Shown here one piece after another: positions 11,506-25,602 of a stretch of 64,000 nt of DNA. Every line of letters begins with the position of its first letter. Position 1 is the first letter of the stretch. A program made the translations under genes and the position numbers. Source of the DNA: Ancylobacter novellus DSM 506 (GTDB lineage Bacteria; Pseudomonadota; Alphaproteobacteria; Rhizobiales; Xanthobacteraceae); NCBI RefSeq assembly GCF_000092925.1, contig NC_014217.1, positions 4,278,001 through 4,342,000 on the forward strand, written 5' to 3'. A model generated the notes under the pieces. That model had not been told where the DNA came from and did not search any database. It saw nothing but the letters and a program-made list of their open reading frames with translations.

Positions 11506-11739
11506 TCAATGCACGCGGTGGCCGCCGCAGCCGAGCCGTGGGTCGACCTTGACCAAGTTGACCACGATGAACCCCTCGGCGAGGTGGTTGACCGCGTCTT
11601 CCAGCGCGATCTGCTCGCCGCGCGAGGCGACCGTGCCGGTGAGGGTGATGATCCGCTTCTCGGTCGACAGCGCGATGTCGATCTCGCCGTCATTGCCGAC
11701 CGCATTGGCCAGGCGCTCGTAGAGTTGCTGGTCCGGCAT
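11506..11739 (-). CDS. Small BON-domain-like protein
   Basis: A 77-residue protein. The central part (E-I-D-I-A-L-S-T-E-K-R-I-I-T-L-T-G-T-V then V-N-H-L-A-E-G-F-I-V-V-N-L-V) follows the pattern of a single BON domain, an alpha/beta module that binds phospholipid or partner proteins. There is no signal peptide, so it is cytoplasmic as read. GGAGGAG lies 7 bases before the ATG. It sits 83 bp downstream of the aminotransferase gene on the same strand, but nothing links them functionally. Confidence 0.65.
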   Translation of the reverse strand: MPDQQLYERLANAVGNDGEIDIALSTEKRIITLTGTVASRGEQIALEDAVNHLAEGFIVVNLVKVDPRLGCGGHRVH

Positions 11740-11822: not shown

Positions 11823-13136
11823 TCAGCCGAGCAGTTCCTCCATGGCGTCGACCAGCTGGTCGACATGATCGGTGGTGACGCAGAGCGGCGGGCGGATCTT
11901 CAGCACGTTGCCATAGCCGCCGGCGGCGCCGATGAGGATGCCGTGGCGGCGCAGGCCGTTGATCAGCCCCTTGGCGATCTCCGGCGCCGGGCCCTCCTCG
12001 GTGCCGAACTCGACGCCGATATAGAGGCCCGCCCCGCGCACGGCGGTGATCGGCGCGCGCGCGGCGAGCCGCTTCAGCCGGGCGGCGAGGTGCCGGCCGA
12101 CATGGGCGGCATTGGCGATGAGGTCGTCCTCCTCTATCGCCTCCAGCACCGCGAGCGCGGCGGCGGTCGCCACCGGGCTGCCGGCGAAGGTGTTGAAATA
12201 GCCGAAATCGGCGCAGAAATCGGCGAGGATCTCCGGCCGCGTCACCACGCCGGCGATGGGGTAGCCATTGCCCATCGGCTTGCCCATGGTGACGATGTCC
12301 GGCTCGACGCCATGGCGCGAGAAGCCCCACATGCCCTCGCCGGTGCGCCCGAAGCCGGGCTGCACCTCGTCGGCGATGAACAGCCCGCCGGCCTTGCGCG
12401 CCACCTCCACCGCGGCTTTCAGGAAGCCGGGCGGGTCGGCATAGACGCCGTCCGAGGAGAAGATGGAATCGACCAGCAGCCCGGCGAAGCGGATGCCGTC
12501 CGCCTCCATGCCGGCGATGGCCGCCGCGACCGCATCGGCGAAGCCCTGCGCCACGTCGTTGCCGAACAGCGCCGGATCGGGCGGCGGCACCATGCGCACA
12601 TGGCGGGGCGGGCCGCCCTGCTTGTAGGAGGAGGGCGAGACCTCGGTCACGGCGGAGGTGTTGCCGTGATAGGCGGTCTTGGTGACCACGAAGCCCTCGC
12701 CGCCGCTGGCCTTTTTCGCAAGGCGCAAGGCGAGGTCGTTGCTCTCGCTGCCCGTGCAGGTGAGCACGAGGTTGCTCAGGCTCGCCGGGTAGGTGGCGAG
12801 CAGCTTCTCGGCATAGTCATGGGCGACGTCGAACAGATAGCGCGAGTGGATGTTGAACTCGCCCATCTGCTTGCGCACCGCCTCCACCACCTTGGGGTGG
12901 CAGTGCCCGACGGTCGGGACGTTGTTGTAGAAGTCGAGATAGGCCCGCCCGTCCGAGGCGTGGATATGCGCGCCCTCGGCTCGCACGATCTTCAAGGGCT
13001 CGTCGTAGAACAGCACCGAGCCGGCGCCGAAGCTCTTCTTCCGCCGCTCGACCAGCGCGGCGATGTCCGGGGCGATGCCCGCGCTATTCCCTGCGAAGGC
13101 GTTGAGCGAGAGGATCTGTAGCTGCTGGCTCTTCAT
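11823..13136 (-). CDS. Class III PLP-dependent aminotransferase / phospholyase-like
   Basis: A 437-residue fold-type I PLP enzyme of the class III aminotransferase family. The PLP lysine is Lys286 in TMGKPMGNGYP, the cofactor-binding Asp is in FIADEVQPGFGRTG, and CTGSESNDLALRLA is the phosphate-binding region. The family includes ornithine/GABA-type transaminases, alanine-glyoxylate transaminase 2, and the phospholyases acting on O-phosphoethanolamine and 5-phosphohydroxylysine. The gene overlaps the APH-type kinase gene by 4 bp (ATGA), which favours the phospholyase option: a kinase product with phosphate beta to an amino carbon would be eliminated to an aldehyde, ammonia and phosphate. It is the last gene of the nine-gene operon. 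The assignment of substrate is inference. Confidence 0.88.
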   Translation of the reverse strand: MKSQQLQILSLNAFAGNSAGIAPDIAALVERRKKSFGAGSVLFYDEPLKIVRAEGAHIHASDGRAYLDFYNNVPTVGHCHPKVVEAVRKQMGEFNIHSRYLFDVAHDYAEKLLATYPASLSNLVLTCTGSESNDLALRLAKKASGGEGFVVTKTAYHGNTSAVTEVSPSSYKQGGPPRHVRMVPPPDPALFGNDVAQGFADAVAAAIAGMEADGIRFAGLLVDSIFSSDGVYADPPGFLKAAVEVARKAGGLFIADEVQPGFGRTGEGMWGFSRHGVEPDIVTMGKPMGNGYPIAGVVTRPEILADFCADFGYFNTFAGSPVATAAALAVLEAIEEDDLIANAAHVGRHLAARLKRLAARAPITAVRGAGLYIGVEFGTEEGPAPEIAKGLINGLRRHGILIGAAGGYGNVLKIRPPLCVTTDHVDQLVDAMEELLG

Positions 13137-14158
13137 GATGCCGCCCTCTCGCTCTCAGCTGCGTCGGTGGTGGCGAGGAAGGCGCGGGCGAGTTCGACCG
13201 TGCCCTGCGTATAGTCCTCGCCCATCGCCTGCGCGGTCGGGGTTTCGGAATGCGAGGCGATCCAGGCGGTGAGCAGCATGCGCCGCAGCATGATGAAGAC
13301 CGGCAATATCGCGCAGTCCTCGTCCGAGAGCGGCGCGACGGTGCGGTAGCCCTCGATCCACGCGGCCTGAAGCTCGGGGACATAGGGCTCGTGCTCGGCG
13401 AAGCTGATGGCGGCGGCGAAGTCGTAGAGGTACCAGGAGAAGCCGCAATCGTCGAAGTCGATCACCGAGAGGTTGTCGCCCTCGACGAGCAGATTGGCGA
13501 CGCGCATGTCGGCATGGACGAGGCCGAAGCGTTCCTCGCCGGTGCCGTACTCCTCCAGCCGATCGCGCAGCAGCTCAGCCGTGCGCTCCAGCACCGCGCG
13601 GCCTTCCGCATCGAGGCCAAGTCCGGCGCGCCAGTCGCCCCAGAGCTGGACCTCGCCAAGCATGGCGTCATAGTCCCAGCGCTTGCGCACGAAGCCGTCC
13701 GGCGGCTGCCAGTTCTTGGCATGGGCGTGCAGGCGGGCATTGATGGCCCCTAACTCGCGATACCAGCGCGGCAGGTCCTCGCCCTCGGCAGGTTCCTTAC
13801 CCGGCAGAAGACCGAAGGCGACGGCATGGCGGATGGTGCCGCCGTCGTCGAGGTCGGCGATGAGGCTGCCATCGGCCTGCAGCACGGGGGTGAGCGTCGC
13901 GATCACGCCGTCGCGGCCGAGCGCGGTCAGCCAGGCAAGCTCGGATTCGATCTCGGCGCGGCTGTGATAACCCGGCCGATGCACGCGGAAGACGACGTCG
14001 CGCCCGCTCGTCGGATCATGGGCGCGGAAGGTGGCGTTCTCGGAGATGGTGAGCAGCTTCAGCTCGGTCGCCTCCGACAGCCCCCAGCGCGGCAAGGCGG
14101 AGCGGAGCCCGCCTTCGAGCCGGATCAGAAAGGCGTCGTCATACATCGGTGTCGTCAT
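13133..14158 (-). CDS. APH-fold small-molecule kinase
   Basis: A 341-residue aminoglycoside-phosphotransferase/choline-kinase-fold protein. The catalytic loop is L-V-H-A-D-M-R-V-A-N-L-L (H-x-D-x-x-x-x-N) and the metal-binding motif is IDFDDCGF. The N-terminal lobe has strands with VVFRVHRPGYH in place of the nucleotide-binding Lys region. The group also contains hydroxylysine kinase, homoserine kinase ThrB and choline kinases. In this operon, with a class III PLP enzyme translationally coupled downstream, a role phosphorylating a hydroxylated amine is more plausible than drug resistance. It starts 10 bp after the isochorismatase-like gene ends. The substrate is not readable from sequence. Confidence 0.85.
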   Translation of the reverse strand: MTTPMYDDAFLIRLEGGLRSALPRWGLSEATELKLLTISENATFRAHDPTSGRDVVFRVHRPGYHSRAEIESELAWLTALGRDGVIATLTPVLQADGSLIADLDDGGTIRHAVAFGLLPGKEPAEGEDLPRWYRELGAINARLHAHAKNWQPPDGFVRKRWDYDAMLGEVQLWGDWRAGLGLDAEGRAVLERTAELLRDRLEEYGTGEERFGLVHADMRVANLLVEGDNLSVIDFDDCGFSWYLYDFAAAISFAEHEPYVPELQAAWIEGYRTVAPLSDEDCAILPVFIMLRRMLLTAWIASHSETPTAQAMGEDYTQGTVELARAFLATTDAAESERAAS

Positions 14159-14168
14159 TTGCGTCGCG

Positions 14169-14882
14169 TCATTGGGCCGGTTCGAGTTCGAGCTTCATCA
14201 GCGCCTTGAGGTCGGCGAGCCGCATCACGTTGCAGTAGATCATGTTGATGATCGCGAGCTCCTGCCGGTGCAGTTCGTCGGTCGCCGCCGCGCAGCAATC
14301 CTCCAGCACGACGACGTCGAAGCTCTCGTCGGCGAGGCTGCGCACGGTGGAGGAGACGCACTGGTCGGTGAAGATGCCGACGCAGATGACGGTGCGGATG
14401 CCGAGGTTCGACAGGATCAGGCGCAGATTGGTGCCGGTCAGCGCGCTGTCGGTGGTCTTGATGACGGTGATCTCGTCGCCTTCCGGCGCGAGCGCCGCGA
14501 CCATCTGCGAGGCGTGCTCGTCCTTGGGAAGCAGCAGATTGTTGAAGCCGGGCTTCTTCTGGCTGAGCGAGCGGTCGCGCCCGTCCAGCGTCCGGCAGGC
14601 GATGCGGGCGAACAGCCGCTCGATCCCCTTGGCGCGGAACAGCGCGAGCAGCTCGGCGATGTTGGGGATCGCCGTCCCATGCGTGCGCTCATGGAACGGC
14701 GTCCAGCCGTCGTAATGCGCGCGCTCGGCCTCGGTCGCGAGCGAGGCCCGGTCGGGGCGCTCCAGATAGGTGTTCTGCACGTCGATGACGAGCAGCGCGG
14801 TGGTCGCCGGATCGAGCACGGGATCGTCCGGCTCCGGCGCCAGCGCGTAGTAGAAGGAGCGGTGTTCGGTCTTCCAGCTCAT
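14169..14882 (-). CDS. Isochorismatase-fold cysteine hydrolase
   Basis: A 237-residue cysteine hydrolase. The triad is visible as Asp in L-L-V-I-D-V-Q-N-T, Lys in T-V-I-K-T-T-D-S-A, and nucleophile Cys175 in G-I-F-T-D-Q-C-V-S-S. The family covers isochorismatase, nicotinamidase, N-carbamoylsarcosine amidase and ureidoacrylate hydrolase (RutB). An amidase or ureidase role fits best here because the neighbours handle amino compounds. Its start overlaps the end of the alpha/beta hydrolase gene by 4 bp, so it is translationally coupled within the operon. Confidence 0.88.
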   Translation of the reverse strand: MSWKTEHRSFYYALAPEPDDPVLDPATTALLVIDVQNTYLERPDRASLATEAERAHYDGWTPFHERTHGTAIPNIAELLALFRAKGIERLFARIACRTLDGRDRSLSQKKPGFNNLLLPKDEHASQMVAALAPEGDEITVIKTTDSALTGTNLRLILSNLGIRTVICVGIFTDQCVSSTVRSLADESFDVVVLEDCCAAATDELHRQELAIINMIYCNVMRLADLKALMKLELEPAQ

Positions 14883-15856
14883 GAGGTGACTCCTGTCACC
14901 ATGGGCGTGCCACCGCTGTCGCCGGCAAATGTCACCTTTGACGCCACCAGTGGCAGGATCGGTGACATTGCTAGGGCGTGGCGGGCGAGGAAGCCGGTGA
15001 GCGCGGCGTCATAGGCGGCGGGCTCCTCATAGAAAGGCATGTGGCTGGAATTCGGGAACACGATGAGTTCCGCCTGCTTCAGTCCCTGCTTCATCCGCAG
15101 CGCGCAGGCGGGGGTGATCTCGTCGTGCCGGCCGACGGTGATCAGCACCGGGCAGGTGATGCGGTTGAGGTCGGGGACGCGGTTCCAGTCCTTGAGATTG
15201 CCGATATAGAGGAACTCGTTCGGCCCCTGCATGGCCATGTAGGGCGCCATGTTCCAGTCATTGAGCGAGGCCATCAGCGGCGCCGGCCAGTGCTGCAATC
15301 GGCAGACATGGCGGTAGTTCAGAATAGTGATCGCTGCCTGATATTCGGGGTGGTCGTAGGTGCCGTCCGCCTCATGGGCGAGCAGCATCTCCACGGTCTC
15401 TGCACCCAGCGAGGCGCGCAGCCGGTGCATCTCGCTCATCAGGTGCGGCAGGTCGGCGGCGGTGTCCTCGAGAATGAGCGTCTTCAACGCTTCCGGATGG
15501 GTCAGCGCATACTCGATCGCCAGCCAGCCGCCCCAGGAGTGGCCGAGGAGATGCACCTTGCCGAGGCCCAGCGCCCGGCGCACCGTCTCGGTCTCGCGGA
15601 CATAGCGGCCGATCTCCCAAAGCGTGGAATCATCGGGCTTGTCGGAGGCGCCGCAGCCGAGCTGGTCGAACGTGACCACCCGGTAGCCATGGTCCTTCAG
15701 GAAGGAATGCGCGTCGCGCAGGTAGTCGCAGGGCAGGCCGGGGCCGCCGTTCAAGAGGAACACGACCTCCTCGCCGGTGCCGTAGCTGTAGGCGACGACC
15801 TTGTGGCCGTCGACCTCGACCTCGATCCGCTCGTCGGCGGGAACCTGCTGCCACAT
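14879..15856 (-). CDS. Alpha/beta hydrolase, proline iminopeptidase-like
   Basis: A 325-residue alpha/beta hydrolase of the S33 peptidase type. Features in order: the oxyanion segment LNGGPGLPCDYL (the family has HGGPG), the F-D-Q-L-G-C-G-A-S-D-K-P motif, the nucleophile elbow GHSWGG with Ser near residue 108, an Asp in VGRHDEITP and a His in NSSHMPFYE. Such enzymes cleave N-terminal proline or other amide and ester bonds of small cytoplasmic molecules; no signal peptide is seen. The last ~20 residues are an unusual low-complexity tail. It begins 5 bp after the deoR-type gene and couples to the isochorismatase-like gene. Confidence 0.87.
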   Translation of the reverse strand: MWQQVPADERIEVEVDGHKVVAYSYGTGEEVVFLLNGGPGLPCDYLRDAHSFLKDHGYRVVTFDQLGCGASDKPDDSTLWEIGRYVRETETVRRALGLGKVHLLGHSWGGWLAIEYALTHPEALKTLILEDTAADLPHLMSEMHRLRASLGAETVEMLLAHEADGTYDHPEYQAAITILNYRHVCRLQHWPAPLMASLNDWNMAPYMAMQGPNEFLYIGNLKDWNRVPDLNRITCPVLITVGRHDEITPACALRMKQGLKQAELIVFPNSSHMPFYEEPAAYDAALTGFLARHALAMSPILPLVASKVTFAGDSGGTPMVTGVTS

Positions 15857-15861
15857 CGCCG

Positions 15862-16671
15862 CTATTTCCCCGCCACGGTGATCTCGACCTGCGCCCGGCC
15901 CAAGGCCCGGCCCACCGCGCCCGCCGGCGGCCGGTCGGTGACGAGACGCTGTATGTCGGGGATGCGCGCCCAGATGGCGAGCGAGGGCACGTCGAACTTC
16001 GCGTGGTCGGAAACCACGATGGTCTCCGCCGCCCGGTTCATCATCGCCTTGTAGACGGCGGCGGAATCCGCCTCGGCATCGGCCAGCCCGTCGGTGGTGA
16101 TGCCGGAGACGCTGAGCACGGCGCGGTTGACGTTGTAGTTCTGCAGGAACTCGATGGTCTCCACCCCGACCATCATGCCCTCGCGGGCATTGTAGCGGCC
16201 CGGGCACATGATGATGTCGATGGTCGGGTTGGCCGCCAGCACCGTCGCCACCGAGAAGGAATGGGTGATCACGGTGAGGTCGCGGCACTCGGCCGACATG
16301 CGGCGGGCGACATGGGTGGTGGTGGCGCCGGCGCCGATGGCGATGACCTCGCGCGGCTTGATGAACTTCACCGCGGCGGCGGCGATGGCCTCGCGCTCGG
16401 CCACCATCATGCGGTGGCGCTCGGTGACAGCCGGCTCCGCCGCGAAGGGCCTGACCGCGCCGCCATAGGTGCGGTTGATCAGCCCGCGTTCCTGCAATTC
16501 GAACAGGTCGCGGCGGATGGTCTCGGTGGAGACGTCGAGCTCCGCCGCAAGGTCGCCGACCCTCAGCGTGGCGGAAGCGCGCATCTCGGCGAGGATCCGC
16601 TCCTGCCTCCCCGCCTTGTCGAGGCGGGGGCGCCGGCGCTCCACGGTGCGGATGATGTCGTCACTGCTCAT
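15862..16671 (-). CDS. DeoR family transcriptional regulator
   Basis: A 269-residue DeoR-type repressor. The N-terminal helix-turn-helix covers about residues 18-72 (LRVGDLAAELDVSTETIRRD then GLINRTYGGAV, the DeoR signature). The C-terminal sugar-phosphate sensor domain carries A-I-G-A-G-A-T-T-T-H-V near residue 115. DeoR proteins usually respond to a phosphorylated intermediate, which suits an operon with a kinase. It is co-transcribed between the ABC permease genes and the enzymes (9-bp and 5-bp gaps), so it probably autoregulates the whole operon from a promoter in 20885-21141. Confidence 0.9.
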   Translation of the reverse strand: MSSDDIIRTVERRRPRLDKAGRQERILAEMRASATLRVGDLAAELDVSTETIRRDLFELQERGLINRTYGGAVRPFAAEPAVTERHRMMVAEREAIAAAAVKFIKPREVIAIGAGATTTHVARRMSAECRDLTVITHSFSVATVLAANPTIDIIMCPGRYNAREGMMVGVETIEFLQNYNVNRAVLSVSGITTDGLADAEADSAAVYKAMMNRAAETIVVSDHAKFDVPSLAIWARIPDIQRLVTDRPPAGAVGRALGRAQVEITVAGK

Positions 16672-16680
16672 GCTATTCCC

Positions 16681-17481
16681 TCACGCCGCGGCCCGCCGCC
16701 GCACGAGCATTCCCACCAGCCCGCCGGCGAGCAGCAGTGCCGCCGCCCCTAGCGTCGCCATGGTGCCGAGCGCCGGGACCATGGGCGTATAGCCCGCGAC
16801 CATCTTGGCATAGAGCCATTCGGGGATCGTACTGTCGGCGCCGGTCGTATAGAGCGAGAGCGGGAAGTTGCTCCAGGAGAGCAGGAAGGCGAACAGCATC
16901 CCCGACCAGATGCCCGGCCAGAGCAGCGGCAGCGTCACCTCGCGCAGCACCTGGATGCGCGAGCAGCCCAGATCGAAGGCGGCTTCCTCCAGCGAGGGAT
17001 CGAAGCCATAGACCTGGATGGCGATCACCAGCGTCACGACGGGCACGATCCACACCATGTGGGCGAACACCGCCGTCGCCCAGCTGGTCTGGATGCCGAC
17101 CGCGTTGAAGCCGAGCAGCATGGCGAGGCCGAGCACCGGCTGCGGGAAGAAGATCGGCAGCAGGATCAGCTTCTGGTAGAGCCGGCGGCCCTTCCAGTCA
17201 TAGCGCGCGAAGGCCAGCGCACCGAAGGTGGCGATGACCACCGAGAACACCGTGACCAGCAGGGCGACGCTGATCGAGGTCTTCACGATCATGCCGATCT
17301 CGATGGAATCGACCGTCTTGCCCCACCAGTCGGTGGAGTACTGCTTCACCGGGAAGCCGAAATAGCGGCTCTTGTTGAAGCTCGCGAGCGCGCCGCAGGC
17401 GATGGGGAGATAGACCACGACGAGGACGAAGAGCGTCCAGCCCCATATGGCGGCGTCGCGGCGCTTGTGGGTGATGGCCAT
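16681..17481 (-). CDS. Polyamine-type ABC transporter permease (PotC-like)
   Basis: A 266-residue inner-membrane permease with about six transmembrane helices and the EAA loop (E-E-A-A-F-D-L-G-C-S then LPLLWPGI) around residue 175-200 that contacts the ATPase. It is the PotC/PotI-type partner of the preceding permease. The start ATG at 17479-17481 shares one base with the TGA of that gene (TGATG), meaning tight translational coupling. It ends 9 bp before the deoR-type gene. Confidence 0.9.
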   Translation of the reverse strand: MAITHKRRDAAIWGWTLFVLVVVYLPIACGALASFNKSRYFGFPVKQYSTDWWGKTVDSIEIGMIVKTSISVALLVTVFSVVIATFGALAFARYDWKGRRLYQKLILLPIFFPQPVLGLAMLLGFNAVGIQTSWATAVFAHMVWIVPVVTLVIAIQVYGFDPSLEEAAFDLGCSRIQVLREVTLPLLWPGIWSGMLFAFLLSWSNFPLSLYTTGADSTIPEWLYAKMVAGYTPMVPALGTMATLGAAALLLAGGLVGMLVRRRAAA

Positions 17482-18386
17482 CAGCGCCTCCCCAGCATGC
17501 GGTCGAGGTCGAGCTTGGACAGCGCGAACAGCGTCAGCCCGCCGATGAAGGCGGTGACGACGACGGCAAGCGCCGAGCCGAGCGGCCAGTTCTGCGAATA
17601 GGTGAAGGCGATCTCGATGTCGTGCGAGATGACGATGATCGACTGGCCGCCGAGGATCTTCGCCTCCGCCGTGGCGCCGATGGCGAGCACGAAGGTGAGC
17701 AGCATGCCGATGAGGATGCCGGGCATGGCGAGCGGCAATTCGATCTCGCGCCAGATCAGCAGGCGCCCGGCGCCGAGATCGCGCGCGGCGTCGACGAGGT
17801 CGCGCGGCACGAGGGCGAGGCCCAGCGTCATCGGGAACAGCATGAAGGGCAGGTAGGTGTAGACCATGCCGAACAGCGTGATGCCGGGGGTGAACAGCAC
17901 CTCCGGCCCGCCGGCAAGGCCCAGCCATTTCAGCGTGCCGTCGAGCACGCCGTTCTTGATGTAGAACAGCACCCAGCCATAGAGCCGGACGTTCTCCGAC
18001 ACGAAGAGCGGGAACACGAACAGCACGCTGATCAGCGGCGCCGCCCGGCCGAACACGACGTTGAGGCCGTAGGCGATGGGATAGGCGACGACCGCGAGTA
18101 TGGCGACGGTCGACAGCGCGAAGCCGCAGGACCACAGGAAGGAGAGCCACACCGTGTTCGACGGGTCGAACAGGGTGGCGAAGTTCGCAAACGTGAAGGA
18201 ACGGAACACGTCGAAGGAGCGCGGCGTCGCGAAGGCATAGCCGAGGATGGCGACGAGCGGGGCGGCGAAGCCGATGCCGAGCAGGAGGGCGACGGGCAGG
18301 GCGCAGCGCGCGCCGGCCGAGAGCATCCGCGCGTGGCGCAGCTCGGCGACGGTCCCGGGGGCGTGGGAGAGGGCGATGTCGGCCAT
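17481..18386 (-). CDS. Polyamine-type ABC transporter permease (PotB-like)
   Basis: A 301-residue permease with about six membrane helices and an EAA motif (D-A-A-R-D-L-G-A-G-R) near residue 210. It is the PotB/PotH-type half of the membrane channel for the importer encoded by 16681-20884. It starts 3 bp after the ATPase gene ends and overlaps the second permease by 1 bp. Substrates of this subfamily include spermidine, putrescine and other small cationic or amino compounds. Confidence 0.9.
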   Translation of the reverse strand: MADIALSHAPGTVAELRHARMLSAGARCALPVALLLGIGFAAPLVAILGYAFATPRSFDVFRSFTFANFATLFDPSNTVWLSFLWSCGFALSTVAILAVVAYPIAYGLNVVFGRAAPLISVLFVFPLFVSENVRLYGWVLFYIKNGVLDGTLKWLGLAGGPEVLFTPGITLFGMVYTYLPFMLFPMTLGLALVPRDLVDAARDLGAGRLLIWREIELPLAMPGILIGMLLTFVLAIGATAEAKILGGQSIIVISHDIEIAFTYSQNWPLGSALAVVVTAFIGGLTLFALSKLDLDRMLGRR

Positions 18387-18389
18387 CGC

Positions 18390-19511
<1,122 letters not shown>

Positions 19512-19589
19512 GTCGTCTTCCGTGATGCGCCGGCGGCGGGTGGTCGTCGCCGGTGGTGATGTCGAGGATGTCCGATCGTTCCGATCGGT

Positions 19590-19682
19590 CCCTCATCCCC
19601 GGGCTTGACCCGGGGACCCAGACTTTCCCGCCGACGCACGGCGTGGCCCCTGGGTGGCCGGGTCAAGCCCGGCCATGAGGGC
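19590..19682. repeat. Dispersed intergenic palindrome, family B copy 1
   Basis: A palindrome whose left half runs CCCTCATCCCCGGGCTTGAC and whose right half is the near reverse complement GGTCAAGCCCGGCCATGAGG. Related copies lie at 48600-48684 and 51774-51862. It lies in the mRNA between the binding-protein gene and the ATPase gene, where a hairpin would protect the upstream message from 3' decay. Confidence 0.85.
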
Positions 19683-19729
19683 AGGATGGGTGGAAGGACG
19701 CAGGCGCGATCCGCTTGCCAGTCTTGGCC

Positions 19730-20884
19730 TCACCCCCGCAGGCGCTTCGCCGCGTTCATGATGTCGAGCGCCTTGTCGTAGTCGGGCACGATGTCGTACT
19801 CGACCGAGCGGGCCATCTCCTCCTCCAGGCTGTCCCACTGGATGGCGTCGAGCTCCTCCTTGGTGAAGAGATCGAAGCAGGCCTTGTTGCCCATCTGCGC
19901 GACGGGGTTGAAGGTGCCCTCGGCGAACGCCACCGTGTGGGCGACATCCGGCGCCTGCACGTATTTCAGGAACTCCAGCGCCAGCGGCGACAGGTTCGGG
20001 TTGTTCACCGTCGAGGTGATCTCGATCCAGGCGATACCGCCCTTGCCGCCCGGCAGCGGGCCCTTCAGCGGGGTGATGCCGCGCAGCTCGGGATGGCCGT
20101 CGGCGCGGGCCGGCGAGACCGAATAGGTGCCGCCGGTCAGGTGCAGGTCGATCTCGCCGGAGATCAGCGCCTGGTTCATCGAGGCGATGTCGCCGATCAG
20201 CTTGGCGCCCTTGAAGACGCGCTTGGCGGTCTCGTCGAACTTCGCCAATTCCTCCGGCGTATGAACCTTGAACGGGTCGATGCCGGCGACGACGAAGATG
20301 TTGAAGACGTTCCAGTCGTCGGATTCGAGGATGCCGTACTTGCCGGCGAGCTTCGGGTCGTTGAACAGGTCCCAGCCCACCTCCTCGGCGGTCTTGCGGC
20401 TGACCTTGTCGGTGTTGACGACGAAGCTGTAGGGCCCGAAGCGCTGGGCCATGCCGATCAGGTCCTTGCCGTCGTCGCTCATCGCCCATTTGTAGGGCGG
20501 CTTGAAGCTCGGCAGCATCTTGTCGAAGAACGGCTCGAACTCGGCCTTGGGCAACGGCTTGATCAGCTTCTCGGGCAGCATCACCTTGCGCGCCCAAGGG
20601 TTATTCACATTGATCAGGTCCCAGGTGTTGGTCTCGCCGGCGCGCAGTCGGTTGATCATGGTGGGATCGTTAGTGAGGCTCTCGGCCTTCACCGTGGCGC
20701 CGGTCTTGGAGCGGAACGGGTCGAGCACCTGGGCGGAGTTGTAGCCCTCCCAGCACAGGATGTTCAGCTCCTTCTCGCGCGCGGCGAACGCCTTGTTGGC
20801 GCCCAGCAGCGGACCGGCGGCGGCGAGCGCGCCGAGCCCCGTGCCCATGCCCTTCAGCAGCGACCTTCTGGATATTCCGGCCAT
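19730..20884 (-). CDS. Polyamine-type ABC substrate-binding protein, Tat-exported
   Basis: A 384-residue periplasmic binding protein of the PotD/PotF group. The N-terminus has a twin-arginine signal (I-S-R-R-S-L-L-K-G then a hydrophobic stretch ending A-F-A-A near residue 35), so it is folded before export. The mature part starts KELNILCWEGYNS, the typical PotD opening. GAGGGA lies about 8 bases upstream of the ATG. It is the first gene of the nine-gene operon and would define the substrate, which is probably a cationic or amino compound; polyamine itself is not proven. Confidence 0.9.
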   Translation of the reverse strand: MAGISRRSLLKGMGTGLGALAAAGPLLGANKAFAAREKELNILCWEGYNSAQVLDPFRSKTGATVKAESLTNDPTMINRLRAGETNTWDLINVNNPWARKVMLPEKLIKPLPKAEFEPFFDKMLPSFKPPYKWAMSDDGKDLIGMAQRFGPYSFVVNTDKVSRKTAEEVGWDLFNDPKLAGKYGILESDDWNVFNIFVVAGIDPFKVHTPEELAKFDETAKRVFKGAKLIGDIASMNQALISGEIDLHLTGGTYSVSPARADGHPELRGITPLKGPLPGGKGGIAWIEITSTVNNPNLSPLALEFLKYVQAPDVAHTVAFAEGTFNPVAQMGNKACFDLFTKEELDAIQWDSLEEEMARSVEYDIVPDYDKALDIMNAAKRLRG

Positions 20885-21141
20885 CTCGAAGTCCCTCTGG
20901 ATTGTTGGCGCGGATGGTTTGCCGCCGCGCGTTCGATGCCGCACCGGGAGCGATCCGATGTGGTTCTTATGTTGGACTGTGTGTGATCCTAAACATTCTG
21001 TTTTGGGCTTTACAACACCAATTTTGCAGCGCAACGTGATGAAAAGGCAGGCAGCCCAAATCGACGGCATCCGTGCCGGCGCGGTGGTGCGCTGACCTGC
21101 CAAATCATTGATCAGCCAGAAAAATCGGGAACAGCCTGAAC
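20885..21141. promoter_or_regulatory. Divergent control region for the nine-gene operon and an SDR gene
   Basis: A 257-bp non-coding gap between divergent genes. The middle (20980-21040) is clearly A+T-richer than the surroundings. It contains an imperfect inverted repeat, CCTAAAC at 20988-20994 with GTTTTGG at 21000-21006 (one mismatch), a candidate operator for the DeoR-type regulator. I could not assign -35/-10 boxes with confidence. Confidence 0.4.
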
Positions 21142-21921
21142 ATGTTTACGTCGCTCGCGGGAAAGACCGTCATCGTCACTGGCGCCAGCAAGGGCATCGG
21201 GCGCGGCATCGCGCTGCGCTTCGGAGAGGTGGGGTTGAACGTGCTGGTGGTCAGCCGCTCTCTCGCCGAAGCCGAGAAGGTGGCGCGCGAGATCGGGCCG
21301 AACGCGTCGGGGCTCGCCGCCGACGTGACGAGCGAGGAGGAAACGCAGGCGATGGCGCAGGTGGCGCTCGACCGCTACGGCTCCATCGACGTGCTCTGCG
21401 CCAATGCCGGCATCTTCCCCGCCGCCAAGCTCGGCGCGATGACCGCGGCCGATTTCGACCTCGTCATGAACACCAACCTGAAGGGCACCTTCCTGTCCGT
21501 CTCTGCCGTGCTGCCGGCGATGAAGGCGCAGAGGAAGGGCCGCATCGTGCTGACCTCCTCCATCACCGGGCCGATCACCGGCTTTCCCGGCTGGACGCAT
21601 TACGGCGCGTCGAAGGCCGGCCAGCTCGGCTTCATGCGCACGGCGGCGATCGAGCTGGCGCCGTGGAACATCACCGTCAACGCGGTGATGCCCGGCAACA
21701 TCCTGACCGAAGGTATGGAGGGGATGGGCGAGGCCTATATCGCGTCGACCGCCGCCAGCGTGCCGATGAAGAAGCTCGGCAGCGTGTTCGACATCGCCAA
21801 TGCGGCTCTGTTCTTCGCCTCCGAGGAGGCGGCCTACATCACCGGCCAGGGCATGGTGATCGACGGCGGCCAGGTGCTCCCCGAGTCGCCCATGGCGCTC
21901 GACGAGATGGGCGCGGCCTGA
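21142..21921 (+). CDS. SDR family oxidoreductase (FabG-like)
   Basis: A 259-residue classical short-chain dehydrogenase. TGASKGIG is near residue 13, NAG at about 86-88, Ser in LTSSITG, and the catalytic pair in HYGASK near residue 155. The C-terminus ends with GQGMVIDGGQ plus a tail. Related proteins reduce 3-oxoacyl substrates or oxidise polyols. It is divergent from the nine-gene importer operon, so it could act on an intermediate of that pathway, but it may equally belong to the downstream dehydrogenase. Its substrate is undetermined. Confidence 0.88.
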   Translation: MFTSLAGKTVIVTGASKGIGRGIALRFGEVGLNVLVVSRSLAEAEKVAREIGPNASGLAADVTSEEETQAMAQVALDRYGSIDVLCANAGIFPAAKLGAMTAADFDLVMNTNLKGTFLSVSAVLPAMKAQRKGRIVLTSSITGPITGFPGWTHYGASKAGQLGFMRTAAIELAPWNITVNAVMPGNILTEGMEGMGEAYIASTAASVPMKKLGSVFDIANAALFFASEEAAYITGQGMVIDGGQVLPESPMALDEMGAA

Positions 21922-22082: not shown

Positions 22083-22227
22083 AATCGGCATGAGCCCTTC
22101 GACGTCCCACCGCCGGACCGGAGGGAAGGGCCTGCCGCCGCTCGTGCCGAGGCGCCGCCGCGTCGTCCGGCGAGCCGTCCCCGGCTGGCCGAATGCAGAA
22201 GGCGGCAGGAAGCCCGAGGAGACGCGC

Positions 22228-23331
22228 ATGCAGACCTACGAGATCGCCGTGATTCATGGCGACGGCATCGGCCCGGAAGTGTGCCAATCGGCGACCGACG
22301 TGATCGAGGCGGCGCTGGGCAATGGCAAGGTCCTCGAATTCACCGAATACCCGGCCGGCGCCGCGCATTTCCTCAAGACCGGCGACGGCGCGCCCAAGGC
22401 CACCATGGATGCCTGCCGCAAGGCCGATGCGATCCTGCACGGCGCCGCCGGCCTGCCGGGCGTCGTCCATCCCGACGGCACGGAAGCGGGCGTCGACATC
22501 GGCCTCGGCCTGCGCGTCCAGCTCGACCTCTACGCCAATGTCCGCCCGATCAGGCTGCGCGAGGGCATCGTCTCGCCGCTGCGCGGGCGCGAGGTCGGCC
22601 AGATCGACTACACCATTATCCGCGAGGACAGCGAGGGCATGTATGCCAGCCGCGGCGCCGGCGCGGTGGTGCGCGAGGAGATGGCGGTCGACATGCTGAT
22701 CGTCACCCGCAAGGGTATCGAGCGCGTCGTGCGCGCCGCCTTCGAGCTCGCCCGCAAGACCGGCGGCGCCCCGCGCGACGGCAAGAAGCGCGTCACCTGC
22801 TGCGACAAGGCCAATGTGCTGCGCAGCCTCGCCTTCTTCCGCCGCGTCTTCGACGAGGTCGGTGAGCAGTATCCCGACGTCGAGCGCGACTATTCCTATG
22901 TCGACGCCATGACCGTGCACCTCGTCGAGCGGCCGGACTTCTACAATGTGATCGTCGCCGAGAACCTGTTCGGCGACATCATCTCCGACCTCGGCGCCGT
23001 CACCGTCGGCGGCATGGGCATGTCGCCCACCGCCGAGCTCGGCGACCATCACGGCTTCTTCCAGGCCGCGCACGGCTCCGCGCCGACCATCGCCGGGCAG
23101 GGCATCGCCAACCCCTACGGCACCATCCTCGCCGGCGCGATGATGCTGCACTGGCTCGCCGAGCGGCATGACGATCCCACGCTCGCCGAGGCTGGCCGCC
23201 GCATCGAGGAGGCCAGCGCCCGCGCGCTCGCCGGCGGCGTGAAGACCCGCGACATCGGCGGCAAGGCGATGACCAGGGACGTGACCGCCGCCGTCATCGG
23301 CGAACTCGGCTCGTCGCTGAAGGTCGCCTGA
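22228..23331 (+). CDS. Isocitrate/isopropylmalate dehydrogenase family, tartrate dehydrogenase-like
   Basis: A 367-residue member of the metal- and NAD-dependent beta-decarboxylating dehydrogenase family. The opening EIAVIHGDGIGPEV and the active-site loop REDSEGMYASRG are typical of the tartrate/D-malate dehydrogenase branch (TtuC, DmlA). A Lys/Asp metal site is seen in NLFGDIISDLGA, and the C-terminal nucleotide region contains GSAPTIAGQGIANP. Expected reaction: oxidation of a 2-hydroxyacid with a beta-carboxylate, with or without decarboxylation. AGGAG lies 7 bases before the ATG. The operator-like site A upstream suggests control by the GntR regulator at 27598. Confidence 0.85.
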   Translation: MQTYEIAVIHGDGIGPEVCQSATDVIEAALGNGKVLEFTEYPAGAAHFLKTGDGAPKATMDACRKADAILHGAAGLPGVVHPDGTEAGVDIGLGLRVQLDLYANVRPIRLREGIVSPLRGREVGQIDYTIIREDSEGMYASRGAGAVVREEMAVDMLIVTRKGIERVVRAAFELARKTGGAPRDGKKRVTCCDKANVLRSLAFFRRVFDEVGEQYPDVERDYSYVDAMTVHLVERPDFYNVIVAENLFGDIISDLGAVTVGGMGMSPTAELGDHHGFFQAAHGSAPTIAGQGIANPYGTILAGAMMLHWLAERHDDPTLAEAGRRIEEASARALAGGVKTRDIGGKAMTRDVTAAVIGELGSSLKVA

Positions 23332-23368
23332 TCCCGCTTCGTCCGCCGGGCCGGCGCTTCGAGGCTTC

Positions 23369-24559
23369 TCAGCCCTCGAAGCGGGCGCGGCCGTTGCCGA
23401 ACTGGATCACCGGAGGGGGCACCACGAAGCTCTCGTCGAGATTGGCGATGTCGGGGCAGCCGATCTGCGCGAGGTTGAGGTCGATCTCGCGGCGCAGGAT
23501 CGACACCAGACGTTGCGCCCCCAGCCGCCCGAAGGCGGCGACACTGTAGAGCGCGGCGCGGCCGAGCAGGCAGATGTCCACGCCCATCGCCATCGCCATC
23601 AGCATGTCGGTGCCGCGGCGGAAGCCGCTGTCCATGATGATGGTCTGCTCCGGCGCCGCCGCGCGGATGGCGGGGAGCACCTCGAGCGGGGCGGGGGCGC
23701 TGTCGAGCTGGCGCCCGCCATGGTTGGAGACATAGAGCCCGTTGGCGCCGAGCTCGGCCGCCTGGCGGGCGTCGTCGGGATGCAGCACGCCCTTGATGAC
23801 GAGATTGCCCGGCCAGATCTTGCGCATGTGCTCGAAGTCCCGCCAGGTCTGGTCGGGTGTCGGGAGCTGCGTGCCGAAGAAGTCCGCCACCTCGTCCGGG
23901 GTGGCGTTCGGCGGCGCATAGGCTTTGAAGCTGCCCATCAGCGGCATGCCGCCGCTGCACACATAGTCCCAGGTCCAGCGCGGATGGGTCAGGCCGTCGA
24001 AGACCAGCGAGGCGGTCTTGCGCAGCGGGCGCGAGAAGCCGTTGCGCATGTTGCGCTCGCGGTTCGGCGCCACCGGCACGTCGGCGGTGATCACCAGCGT
24101 CTCGACGCCGCAATCCTTCGCCCGGCCGATGAGCGAGTCGGCGATTGCGCGGTCGCGCGTGGTGTAGAGCTGGAACCACAGATTGCCGCGCGCGAGCCGG
24201 GTGGCCTCCTCCACCGTGTTGTTGCCGGCGGTCGACAGCAGGAAGGGCAGGTTGGCCTCGCCCGCGGTCTCGGCCAGGAGCCCCTCCGCGCCGGGGCGCC
24301 AGAGGTCCGGCGTGCCAGTCGGGCAGAAGCCGAAGGGGCTGTCATAGGTCCTGCCGAAGACGGTGGTCTTCTGGCTGCGCTGGGACACGTCGACGAAATA
24401 GCGCGGCAGCAGGCGGCACTGGCTGAAGATGCGCTCGTTGCGGGCGATGCCGTGCTCGCCCTCGACGCCACCCTCGATGAAGTCGAACACCACGCGCGGC
24501 AGCCGGCGCTTCGCTGCCTTGCGCATGTCCTCGGCGGTGATCATCCTCTCGATCTTCAT
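23369..24559 (-). CDS. FMN-dependent alpha-hydroxyacid oxidase/dehydrogenase
   Basis: A 396-residue TIM-barrel flavoprotein of the lactate/glycolate oxidase and mandelate dehydrogenase family. The catalytic His is in VSNHGGRQLD near residue 277, with the following Arg binding the carboxylate. The substrate Tyr is in W-F-Q-L-Y-T-T-R-D, the FMN phosphate site in DSGFRRGTDMLMAMAMG. It oxidises an L-2-hydroxyacid to the 2-oxoacid, with electrons going to oxygen or a quinone. No membrane segment is obvious, although some homologues are membrane-bound. It is divergent from a GntR regulator at 24793 across a gap with a 21-bp perfect inverted repeat. Confidence 0.9.
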   Translation of the reverse strand: MKIERMITAEDMRKAAKRRLPRVVFDFIEGGVEGEHGIARNERIFSQCRLLPRYFVDVSQRSQKTTVFGRTYDSPFGFCPTGTPDLWRPGAEGLLAETAGEANLPFLLSTAGNNTVEEATRLARGNLWFQLYTTRDRAIADSLIGRAKDCGVETLVITADVPVAPNRERNMRNGFSRPLRKTASLVFDGLTHPRWTWDYVCSGGMPLMGSFKAYAPPNATPDEVADFFGTQLPTPDQTWRDFEHMRKIWPGNLVIKGVLHPDDARQAAELGANGLYVSNHGGRQLDSAPAPLEVLPAIRAAAPEQTIIMDSGFRRGTDMLMAMAMGVDICLLGRAALYSVAAFGRLGAQRLVSILRREIDLNLAQIGCPDIANLDESFVVPPPVIQFGNGRARFEG

Positions 24560-24642
24560 ATGTCGACACTCAATGCGCTATACGGCTGCTTTCTGCCGAA
24601 ATTATCGTCGATAGAACATAATAAAGTCGACAGATAATATCG

Positions 24643-24687
24643 TCCCAAACCATTGACATCTAGAAACTAGATGTCAATGGTTTGGGA
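24643..24687. promoter_or_regulatory. Perfect 21-bp inverted repeat, probable operator or hairpin
   Basis: Arms at 24643-24663 and 24667-24687 are perfect reverse complements separated by AAA. Each arm carries TTGACA. It lies in the 233-bp gap between the divergent hydroxyacid oxidase and GntR genes. The same gap carries TGTCGACA at 24561-24568 and AGTCGACA at 24625-24632. Most of the gap is A+T-rich, as expected for a divergent promoter region. Either GntR binding or a transcribed hairpin could explain the symmetry. Confidence 0.7.
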
Positions 24688-24792
24688 TCAAAAATGCGAT
24701 CCGCACCGTTCGACGCCGCGATTGAGCGTCCTCGCGCGAAGGGTATAAAGGTCCGTCGAGTGCCGGATGCCGGCGAAGGAAACGGAGCAAGG

Positions 24793-25602
24793 ATGGAAGG
24801 CGAGAGCGCGGACCGGCCGCGAAACGAGCGCAGGCGCGGGGCGGTTCCCCTTGCGCCGCTGCGGCTGCCGAGCCGCGGGCAGGCGCGCGGCGCCACCGAG
24901 GAGGTCATCGCCCGCATCAACGCGATGATCAGCGACAAGGTGCTCTCGCCCGGCGACCGGCTGCCGGCCGAGATCAGCTTCGCCCGCCAGCTCGGCGTGC
25001 CGCGCTCGGCGGTGTCGCGCGCCTATGCCAAGCTGGAGGCCTACGGCCTGATCCGCACCGTGCCGCAGAGCGGCACCTATCTCGCCGGCATCGAGAGCGA
25101 TGCGCTCGGCGCGCTGATGTACAACGTGATGAACGCCAACTTCATCACGGTCGAGGCCGATGACATTGAGCACCTCTACCGCTTCCGCGCCTTCCTCGAG
25201 GAATCGGCCGCCCTGCCGCTGGTCCGCACCGCCACCGACGAGGATCTGCGCGCGCTCGCCGAGACGCAGGAATGGGTCAGGACCAAGATCCTGGAGCAGA
25301 ACGGTACCATCGAGGACGACCTGCTGTTCCACCTGAAGATCGCCGAACTGAGCGGGCGGCCCTTCTTCAAGTCGATCCAGCTCTTCATCGCCGTGCCCAT
25401 GGTCAACGTGTTCCGCCCGATCGAGAACAGCCGCCGCACCGAGGAGATGAACGAGCGCTGGCGAAACTCGATGCGCGAGCATGACGAGATCGTCGCTGCC
25501 CTCATGGCGCGCGACGAGGACCGTGTCCGTCAGGCCATCTGGACGCATTGCCGGAACTCGGTCGATTTCCGCTCCAACATGCTGAGGCACGGCGCCCCCT
25601 AG
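24793..25602 (+). CDS. GntR family regulator (FCD)
   Basis: A 269-residue FadR-subfamily regulator. The N-terminal winged helix runs over about residues 28-95 (EVIARINAMISDKVLSPGDR then LGVPRSAVSRAYAKLEAYGL). The C-terminal all-helical FCD ligand domain has the metal-binding pattern D-x-x-x-H with DLLFHLKIAELSG and a later His in REHDEI. I preferred the ATG at 24793, with GGAGCAAGG upstream, over a TTG 37 codons earlier that lies inside the inverted repeat. It probably senses a hydroxyacid and controls the divergent oxidase and the 2-hydroxyacid dehydrogenase 78 bp downstream. Confidence 0.9.
   Translation: MEGESADRPRNERRRGAVPLAPLRLPSRGQARGATEEVIARINAMISDKVLSPGDRLPAEISFARQLGVPRSAVSRAYAKLEAYGLIRTVPQSGTYLAGIESDALGALMYNVMNANFITVEADDIEHLYRFRAFLEESAALPLVRTATDEDLRALAETQEWVRTKILEQNGTIEDDLLFHLKIAELSGRPFFKSIQLFIAVPMVNVFRPIENSRRTEEMNERWRNSMREHDEIVAALMARDEDRVRQAIWTHCRNSVDFRSNMLRHGAP

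Follow-up and report, generated by a model that had tools for sequence, protein, structure and literature searches.

We propose that a ten-gene locus of the soil bacterium Ancylobacter novellus DSM 506 (Ancylobacter is the present genus name for Starkeya novella) encodes a shell-free catabolic system for aminoacetone and 1-amino-2-propanol that has its own importer, a reading to which we assign a probability of about 0.78 from homology, conserved residues and gene context. The locus lies in a stretch of 64,000 nucleotides (contig NC_014217.1, positions 4,278,001 to 4,342,000, forward strand; the host genome has 4,765,023 bases in one contig), here called the window, and all coordinates count from its first letter. 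An initial annotation, made from the DNA alone, had described a nine-gene operon on one strand, and all nine reading frames are indeed found on the minus strand between 11823 and 20884, with their counterparts co-located in other Ancylobacter genomes. The tenth gene, a divergent short-chain dehydrogenase/reductase (SDR) at 21142-21921 on the plus strand, had been overlooked, and it is this gene that narrows the predicted substrate from an amino alcohol in general, which still stands, to the 1-amino-2-propanol class.

In the proposed route, the PotDABC proteins would take up the amino alcohol, free or conjugated, and in strains that possess them the S33 hydrolase and the isochorismatase-fold enzyme might conceivably release the amino compound from a conjugate. 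The SDR would interconvert aminoacetone and 1-amino-2-propanol with NADP(H), as homology and contact residues suggest, while the APH-fold kinase, judged by its homology, would use ATP to form 1-amino-2-propanol O-phosphate. From this product the class III pyridoxal phosphate (PLP) enzyme, given its subfamily and residues, would generate propanal, ammonia and phosphate, and the propanal would be oxidized by an enzyme encoded outside the operon. The DeoR-family regulator would govern both transcripts through the region that they share. The order of phosphorylation followed by elimination of phosphate and ammonia had been put forward in the initial annotation, and homology and residues now speak for it. 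The features are as follows.

21142-21921, plus strand: SDR, predicted aminoacetone/1-amino-2-propanol dehydrogenase, divergent from the operon
20885-21141, no strand: divergent control region of 257 base pairs (bp); conserved core at about 20958-21057
19730-20884, minus strand: PotD-like periplasmic binding protein (weak PotD match, predicted fold)
18390-19511, minus strand: PotA-like ATPase (family matches)
17481-18386, minus strand: PotB-like permease (family matches)
16681-17481, minus strand: PotC-like permease (family matches)
15862-16671, minus strand: DeoR-family regulator (PF00455, PF08220)
14879-15856, minus strand: S33 alpha/beta hydrolase, proline-iminopeptidase-like, accessory (TIGR01250)
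14169-14882, minus strand: isochorismatase-fold cysteine hydrolase, accessory (presumed triad D34-K142-C175)
13133-14158, minus strand: APH-fold kinase, predicted 1-amino-2-propanol kinase (6ef6 match, PF01636)
11823-13136, minus strand: class III PLP enzyme, predicted amino-alcohol O-phosphate phospholyase (5g4i and 6tor matches)

The dehydrogenase and the shared control region

The SDR gene starts 257 bp from potD on the opposite strand, and we count it in the gene set because it stands beside the operon in all 27 kinase-bearing Ancylobacter genomes. Its best structural matches in the PDB are 6ci8 (293 bits), 6ci9 (291), 3rih (281) and 3pk0 (270), the next one reaching 174 bits, and we take 6ci8 to be the dehydrogenase of the RMM microcompartment. 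Mallette and Kimber reportedly described in 2018 how aminoacetone is held in that enzyme by Thr145 and by Glu251 of the neighboring protomer and is packed by Phe95, Trp154 and Leu195. The letters at 6ci8 positions 95, 145, 154, 195 and 251 agree with these residues, and we assume that F95, T145, W154, L195 and E251 are the aminoacetone contacts. The window's SDR has F92, T142, W151, M192 and E248 at these places, such that four of the five are identical and the change of L195 to M192 is conservative. Across 65 aligned rows of at least 50% identity (64 of them distinct, the window's own included), T, W and E are present in 65/65 and F in 64/65, with L (48), M (16) or V (1) at position 195. In four distant SDRs, a small contrast set, the F, T and W are all absent and the position of the E falls in a gap. 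The SDR is thus predicted to be an NADP(H)-dependent aminoacetone/1-amino-2-propanol dehydrogenase.

An alignment of 26 Ancylobacter intergenic regions reveals a conserved core of about 100 bp, the limits of which were set by eye from the consensus line. This is as expected for one control region, with a putative operator, serving both transcripts.

The kinase and the PLP enzyme

The kinase matches PF01636 with 98 bits and its closest PDB entry is 6ef6 (260 bits), far ahead of the next, an amicoumacin kinase (78 bits). We take 6ef6 to be the (S)-1-amino-2-propanol kinase of the RMM/AAUM microcompartment. The HxD motif, an N and a D are the catalytic residues of the APH fold, and the corresponding H215-x-D217, N222 and D234 are invariant in 15/15 aligned relatives. 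We predict that the protein is a 1-amino-2-propanol kinase forming the O-phosphate with ATP.

The PLP enzyme finds its best PDB matches in the phospholyase 5g4i (344 bits) and the ethanolamine-phosphate phospho-lyase 6tor (311 bits), with the next class III enzyme at 168 bits. In Escherichia coli GabT, residues R141, E211 and R398 mark the handling of the substrate and of 2-oxoglutarate. In an alignment with GabT these become N159, S228 and K413 in the window's protein, K286 being the PLP lysine, and the stretches GKPMGNG and KIRPP are present as they are in the 5g4i/6tor subfamily. The residues were counted over 96 of 105 loci, nine near-duplicates being left out, plus one further locus (L141 in our numbering): N, S and K occupy the three positions in 82/82 rows of at least 50% identity, and 7/7 rows of 35-50% share the first (N) and the third (K). 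It is a well-supported prediction, drawn from these comparisons, that the enzyme is an amino-alcohol O-phosphate phospholyase which eliminates phosphate and ammonia. It resembles the 5g4i/6tor subfamily in score, in K286, in both motifs and in the GabT triad that is not kept, and differs from it in its operon partners, which point to 1-amino-2-propanol O-phosphate and not to phosphoethanolamine.

A distantly related second PLP enzyme of class III (about 25-28% identity) is encoded near the kinase in loci L025, L027, L029, L030, L115, L119, L141, L045, L047, L049, L051, L054 and L055, and within these stretches there is no close copy of the usual PLP enzyme. In the eight sequences aligned, H, T and Q stand at the positions of GabT R141, E211 and R398, and the protein may be an independent lyase.

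Conservation and linkage of the gene set

Within the genus, the kinase was found in 27 of 30 genomes searched and the SDR in the same 27, the three without a kinase also being without an SDR. At a threshold of at least 50% identity and in loci of about 12-19 kb, the 27 kinase-bearing genomes (own genome included) have the SDR, DeoR, kinase and PLP enzyme genes in 27 cases each and those for PotD, PotA, PotB and PotC in 26 each. Because matches of 69-99% identity are grouped together in other Ancylobacter genomes, with the order kept in the loci that were inspected (e.g., L033-L036 and L066-L071), the nine-gene arrangement goes beyond chance. The initial annotation had made its proposal depend on the neighborhood being conserved in other genomes, and conserved it is, although the S33 and isochorismatase-fold genes are missing from many of these co-located loci.

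Outside the genus, neighbors were counted by tblastn around the best 80 of 577 confirmed kinase loci, which come from alpha- and gammaproteobacteria and, in a few cases, from metagenome-assembled genomes of other groups, 10 of the 80 (L077 among them) belonging to the window's genus; an open reading frame clustering of 96 loci merged the kinase with the PLP enzyme and was used just to find neighbors. All 80 loci taken together contain the PLP enzyme in 60, the SDR in 52, both in 48, DeoR in 41, PotD in 30, the isochorismatase-fold gene in 13, S33 in 8 and none of these in 16. For the 70 loci from outside the genus the corresponding numbers are 50, 42, 38, 31, 21, 10, 3 and 16, and for the 44 of these that are at least 20.9 kb long they are 29 (PLP enzyme), 28 (SDR), 25 (both), 21 (DeoR), 14 (PotD), 7 (isochorismatase fold) and 2 (S33). 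The At plasmid of Agrobacterium fabrum C58 is an example of such a set outside the genus, with the kinase, PLP enzyme, SDR, PotDABC, isochorismatase-fold protein and DeoR together with an S58 peptidase. Of 384 other genomes drawn from across the class, 32 have the kinase (E ≤1e-30), 16 the SDR (≤1e-70) and 13 both; at most 5, 7 and 6 candidates per genome were scored in the searches, and misses are possible. If the genomes are taken to be independent, the probability of this co-occurrence is about 3e-13, a value that relatedness makes too small.

Relation to RMM/AAUM microcompartments

The RMM/AAUM (aminoacetone utilization) microcompartments of Mycobacterium and Rhodococcus have a related dehydrogenase (6ci8), kinase (6ef6) and PLP enzyme and the same predicted amino-alcohol route as the window's operon. 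On plasmid pRHL2 of Rhodococcus jostii RHA1, the kinase (44% identity) and the PLP enzyme (46%) are encoded among bacterial microcompartment (BMC) shell genes and an aldehyde dehydrogenase. The differences are that the host genome has no match to a shell gene and the operon no aldehyde dehydrogenase, that the operon has a Pot-type ABC importer and DeoR where RMM/AAUM has a permease and GntR, and that it has the additional S33 and isochorismatase-fold genes. A search of the host genome for PF00936 (BMC shell) gave no match, while a control over 14 genomes was positive in E. coli and Synechococcus; by this search the system is not a microcompartment, though it would work like the enzyme core of one. 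Mallette and Kimber are said to have already favored a phospholyase step leading to propanal and to have noted non-compartment kinases and dehydrogenases adjoining a candidate phospholyase, so the operon is a further case of a known type of pathway.

The published models differ on the PLP enzyme. The excerpts of Axen (2014; PMC4207490) and Ravcheev (2019; PMC6620236) that we consulted take the RMM enzyme to be an aminotransferase with methylglyoxal or lactaldehyde as the product, and that of the former also says that RMM1 includes hydrolases. An excerpt of PMC8156839, citing Mallette and Kimber, gives the conversion of aminoacetone to propionyl-CoA as the proposed role of the compartment. The RHA1 PLP enzyme is also without the GabT triad (C, S and K at the three positions), which fits this last proposal. 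The initial annotation knew of no described pathway with this gene set, a statement that no longer holds given that, by their titles, published papers deal with an (S)-1-amino-2-propanol kinase and a dehydrogenase from the microcompartment of M. smegmatis. In its microcompartment versions the enzyme set has been published before, and the importer and the hydrolases, which none of the titles and abstract openings retrieved names, are the less-explained part.

Three loci of the same order (L025, L027 and L030) also encode Pfam BMC-domain proteins, and a protein of L029 matches the CcmP model under its cut-off. Aldehyde dehydrogenase genes lie near the kinase in all four, L027 being a second locus of one Ancylobacter genome (G005). 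L030 brings together a Pot importer, an isochorismatase-fold gene, the SDR, the kinase, the second PLP enzyme, an aldehyde dehydrogenase and a BMC protein.

Importer, accessory hydrolases and neighboring genes

From potD onward the genes are separated by 218 bp, 3 bp, a 1-base overlap, 9 bp, 5 bp, a 4-base overlap, 10 bp and a 4-base overlap, in agreement with the earlier description that beyond the first gene neighbors either overlap or lie at most 10 bp apart. The family names given in the initial annotation agree with the profile matches except at the PotD-like protein, which has no Pfam family match and reaches just 28 bits with the PotD profile, for which the cut-off is 582. Within the 25 best NCBIfam matches of each protein, the S33 protein alone reaches a curated cut-off (TIGR01250, 272 bits against 168). 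The importer is like the spermidine-putrescine systems PotABCD and PotFGHI in its four-part architecture and predicted binding-protein fold, and its proteins stay under the curated cut-offs among those matches. The predicted fold of the PotD-like protein is closest to polyamine-binding proteins, at 14-19% identity to polyamine receptors; a ligand prediction from residues was set aside, the profile aligning weakly to PotD (30 bits for 1pot). The type of importer varies among kinase loci (Pot, SBP_bac_5 and APC). At one Ancylobacter locus (L074 in genome G006), the SDR, DeoR, S33, kinase and PLP enzyme genes are present and potDABC is missing, as is apparent from the SDR and DeoR matches being just about 240 bp apart.

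The isochorismatase-fold protein has D34, K142 and C175, presumably the catalytic triad of the family, and these are invariant in 19/19 sequences of a group whose mean column identity is 76% over the 19. Biuret/triuret hydrolase, RutB and maleamate amidase have 21-27% identity to it over aligned residues; it falls under their curated cut-offs and forms a conserved group of its own. The S33 gene is in the operon in 13/27 and the isochorismatase-fold gene in 7/27 genus loci, and because both are optional in this way, the suggestion of an amide- or carbamoyl-linked substrate, which depended on them, is weakened. An S58 (P1/DmpA-type) peptidase, which perhaps replaces S33, is encoded in L081, L084, L088 and L146 (23460-24614; checked against Pfam for L146 alone).

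The 218-bp gap between potD and potA contains, at window positions 19590-19680, a G+C-rich palindromic stretch, GGCCGGGCTTGACCCGGCC, that resembles a dispersed repeat. Adjoining the SDR, at 22090-25602, are genes for an Iso_dh-family dehydrogenase, an FMN-dependent dehydrogenase and a GntR regulator of the FCD type. All three were considered as pathway members and not included; the Iso_dh (isopropylmalate-dehydrogenase-like) gene is beside the operon in 1/27 genus loci, its own. A downstream BON-domain gene (11506-11739) was likewise rejected because it is matched at the 50% threshold in just 4/27 genus loci, own genome included.

Weighing the alternatives

Several points weigh against an aminoacetone/1-amino-2-propanol system. 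The functions of all of these proteins are predictions from sequence, and the score margin of 6ci8 over the runners-up 3rih and 3pk0 is small. None of the ten genes encodes an aldehyde dehydrogenase, no genome-wide search for a propanal dehydrogenase having been made. In 12 of the 44 long loci from outside the genus the kinase is without any other tested partner at the thresholds used, and the fold relatives of the PotD-like protein bind polyamines. The best matches of the PLP enzyme are a phospholyase and an ethanolamine-phosphate phospho-lyase, and membership in that subfamily is not specific to aminopropanol. This last resemblance suits the same chemistry acting mainly on ethanolamine or another vicinal amino alcohol, with the SDR serving a by-product or some other secondary alcohol, as do eutC-like genes (ethanolamine ammonia-lyase subunit) near the kinase in L097, L114, L125 and L148 (confirmed by NCBIfam in L125, annotated in L148) and, on two plasmids, genes for an ethanolamine permease in the region of the kinase. 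We nevertheless regard it as unlikely, as the SDR retains the aminoacetone contacts and ethanolamine would require no secondary-alcohol dehydrogenase. A larger amino alcohol derived from polyamines or lysine, such as hydroxyputrescine or hydroxylysine, would explain the Pot-type importer and the fold of its binding protein, and a pairing of hydroxylysine kinase with a phospholyase is known. The kept contacts stand against it, since the 6ci8 pocket, as we understand it, completely encloses a three-carbon ligand, and so do the low identity to polyamine receptors and the variation in importer type, making such a substrate improbable. Least credible of all is a pairing of an ordinary transaminase with an aminoglycoside-type kinase and no phospholyase pathway, even though automatic annotation labels proteins of these kinds as aspartate aminotransferase family and phosphotransferase and the excerpted RMM models (PMC4207490, PMC6620236) used an aminotransferase. 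We rejected it on the GabT residues, which are not kept in any of the 82 rows, on the 144 bits that separate the phospholyases from the class III enzymes ranked after them and the kinase scores (260 against 78), and on the linkage of kinase and PLP enzyme across loci.

A side question, compatible with any of these readings, is whether the S33 and isochorismatase-fold genes are passengers without a role in the pathway. They are not in the operon in 14/27 and 20/27 genus loci, respectively, and of the 14 genus genomes that lack S33 in the operon, 11 encode S33 relatives (68-71%) at another place. At the class level the isochorismatase-fold gene and the SDR do not occur strictly together, as 6 of 12 other genomes that have the isochorismatase-fold protein give no match to the SDR or the kinase. 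In a set of 31 relatives from outside the genus, in contrast, the isochorismatase-fold gene and the SDR are present in exactly the same seven and are at most 7 kb apart in six of these, and we consider passenger status a serious prospect that nonetheless falls short of even odds.

Implications

Returning to the aminoacetone/1-amino-2-propanol system, we tentatively suggest, with rather more doubt than confidence, that soil and marine habitats contain an undescribed natural conjugate of 1-amino-2-propanol or aminoacetone, which would be imported by the Pot proteins and freed by the isochorismatase-fold enzyme (with S33 or S58 in some strains) to feed the shell-free pathway. On this reading, the presence of the same types of importer, amidase, dehydrogenase and kinase beside BMC genes in L030 would mean that a single bacterial order has the one pathway both inside a compartment and free of it. 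An unexplained group of isochorismatase-fold amidases often travels with the dehydrogenase, and A. novellus, with its complete single chromosome, offers a soil bacterium in which the predicted aminopropanol route would be testable without a shell. The residues argue, furthermore, that the "aminotransferase" of the two published RMM models is a phospholyase, in which case the product would be propanal and not lactaldehyde or methylglyoxal.

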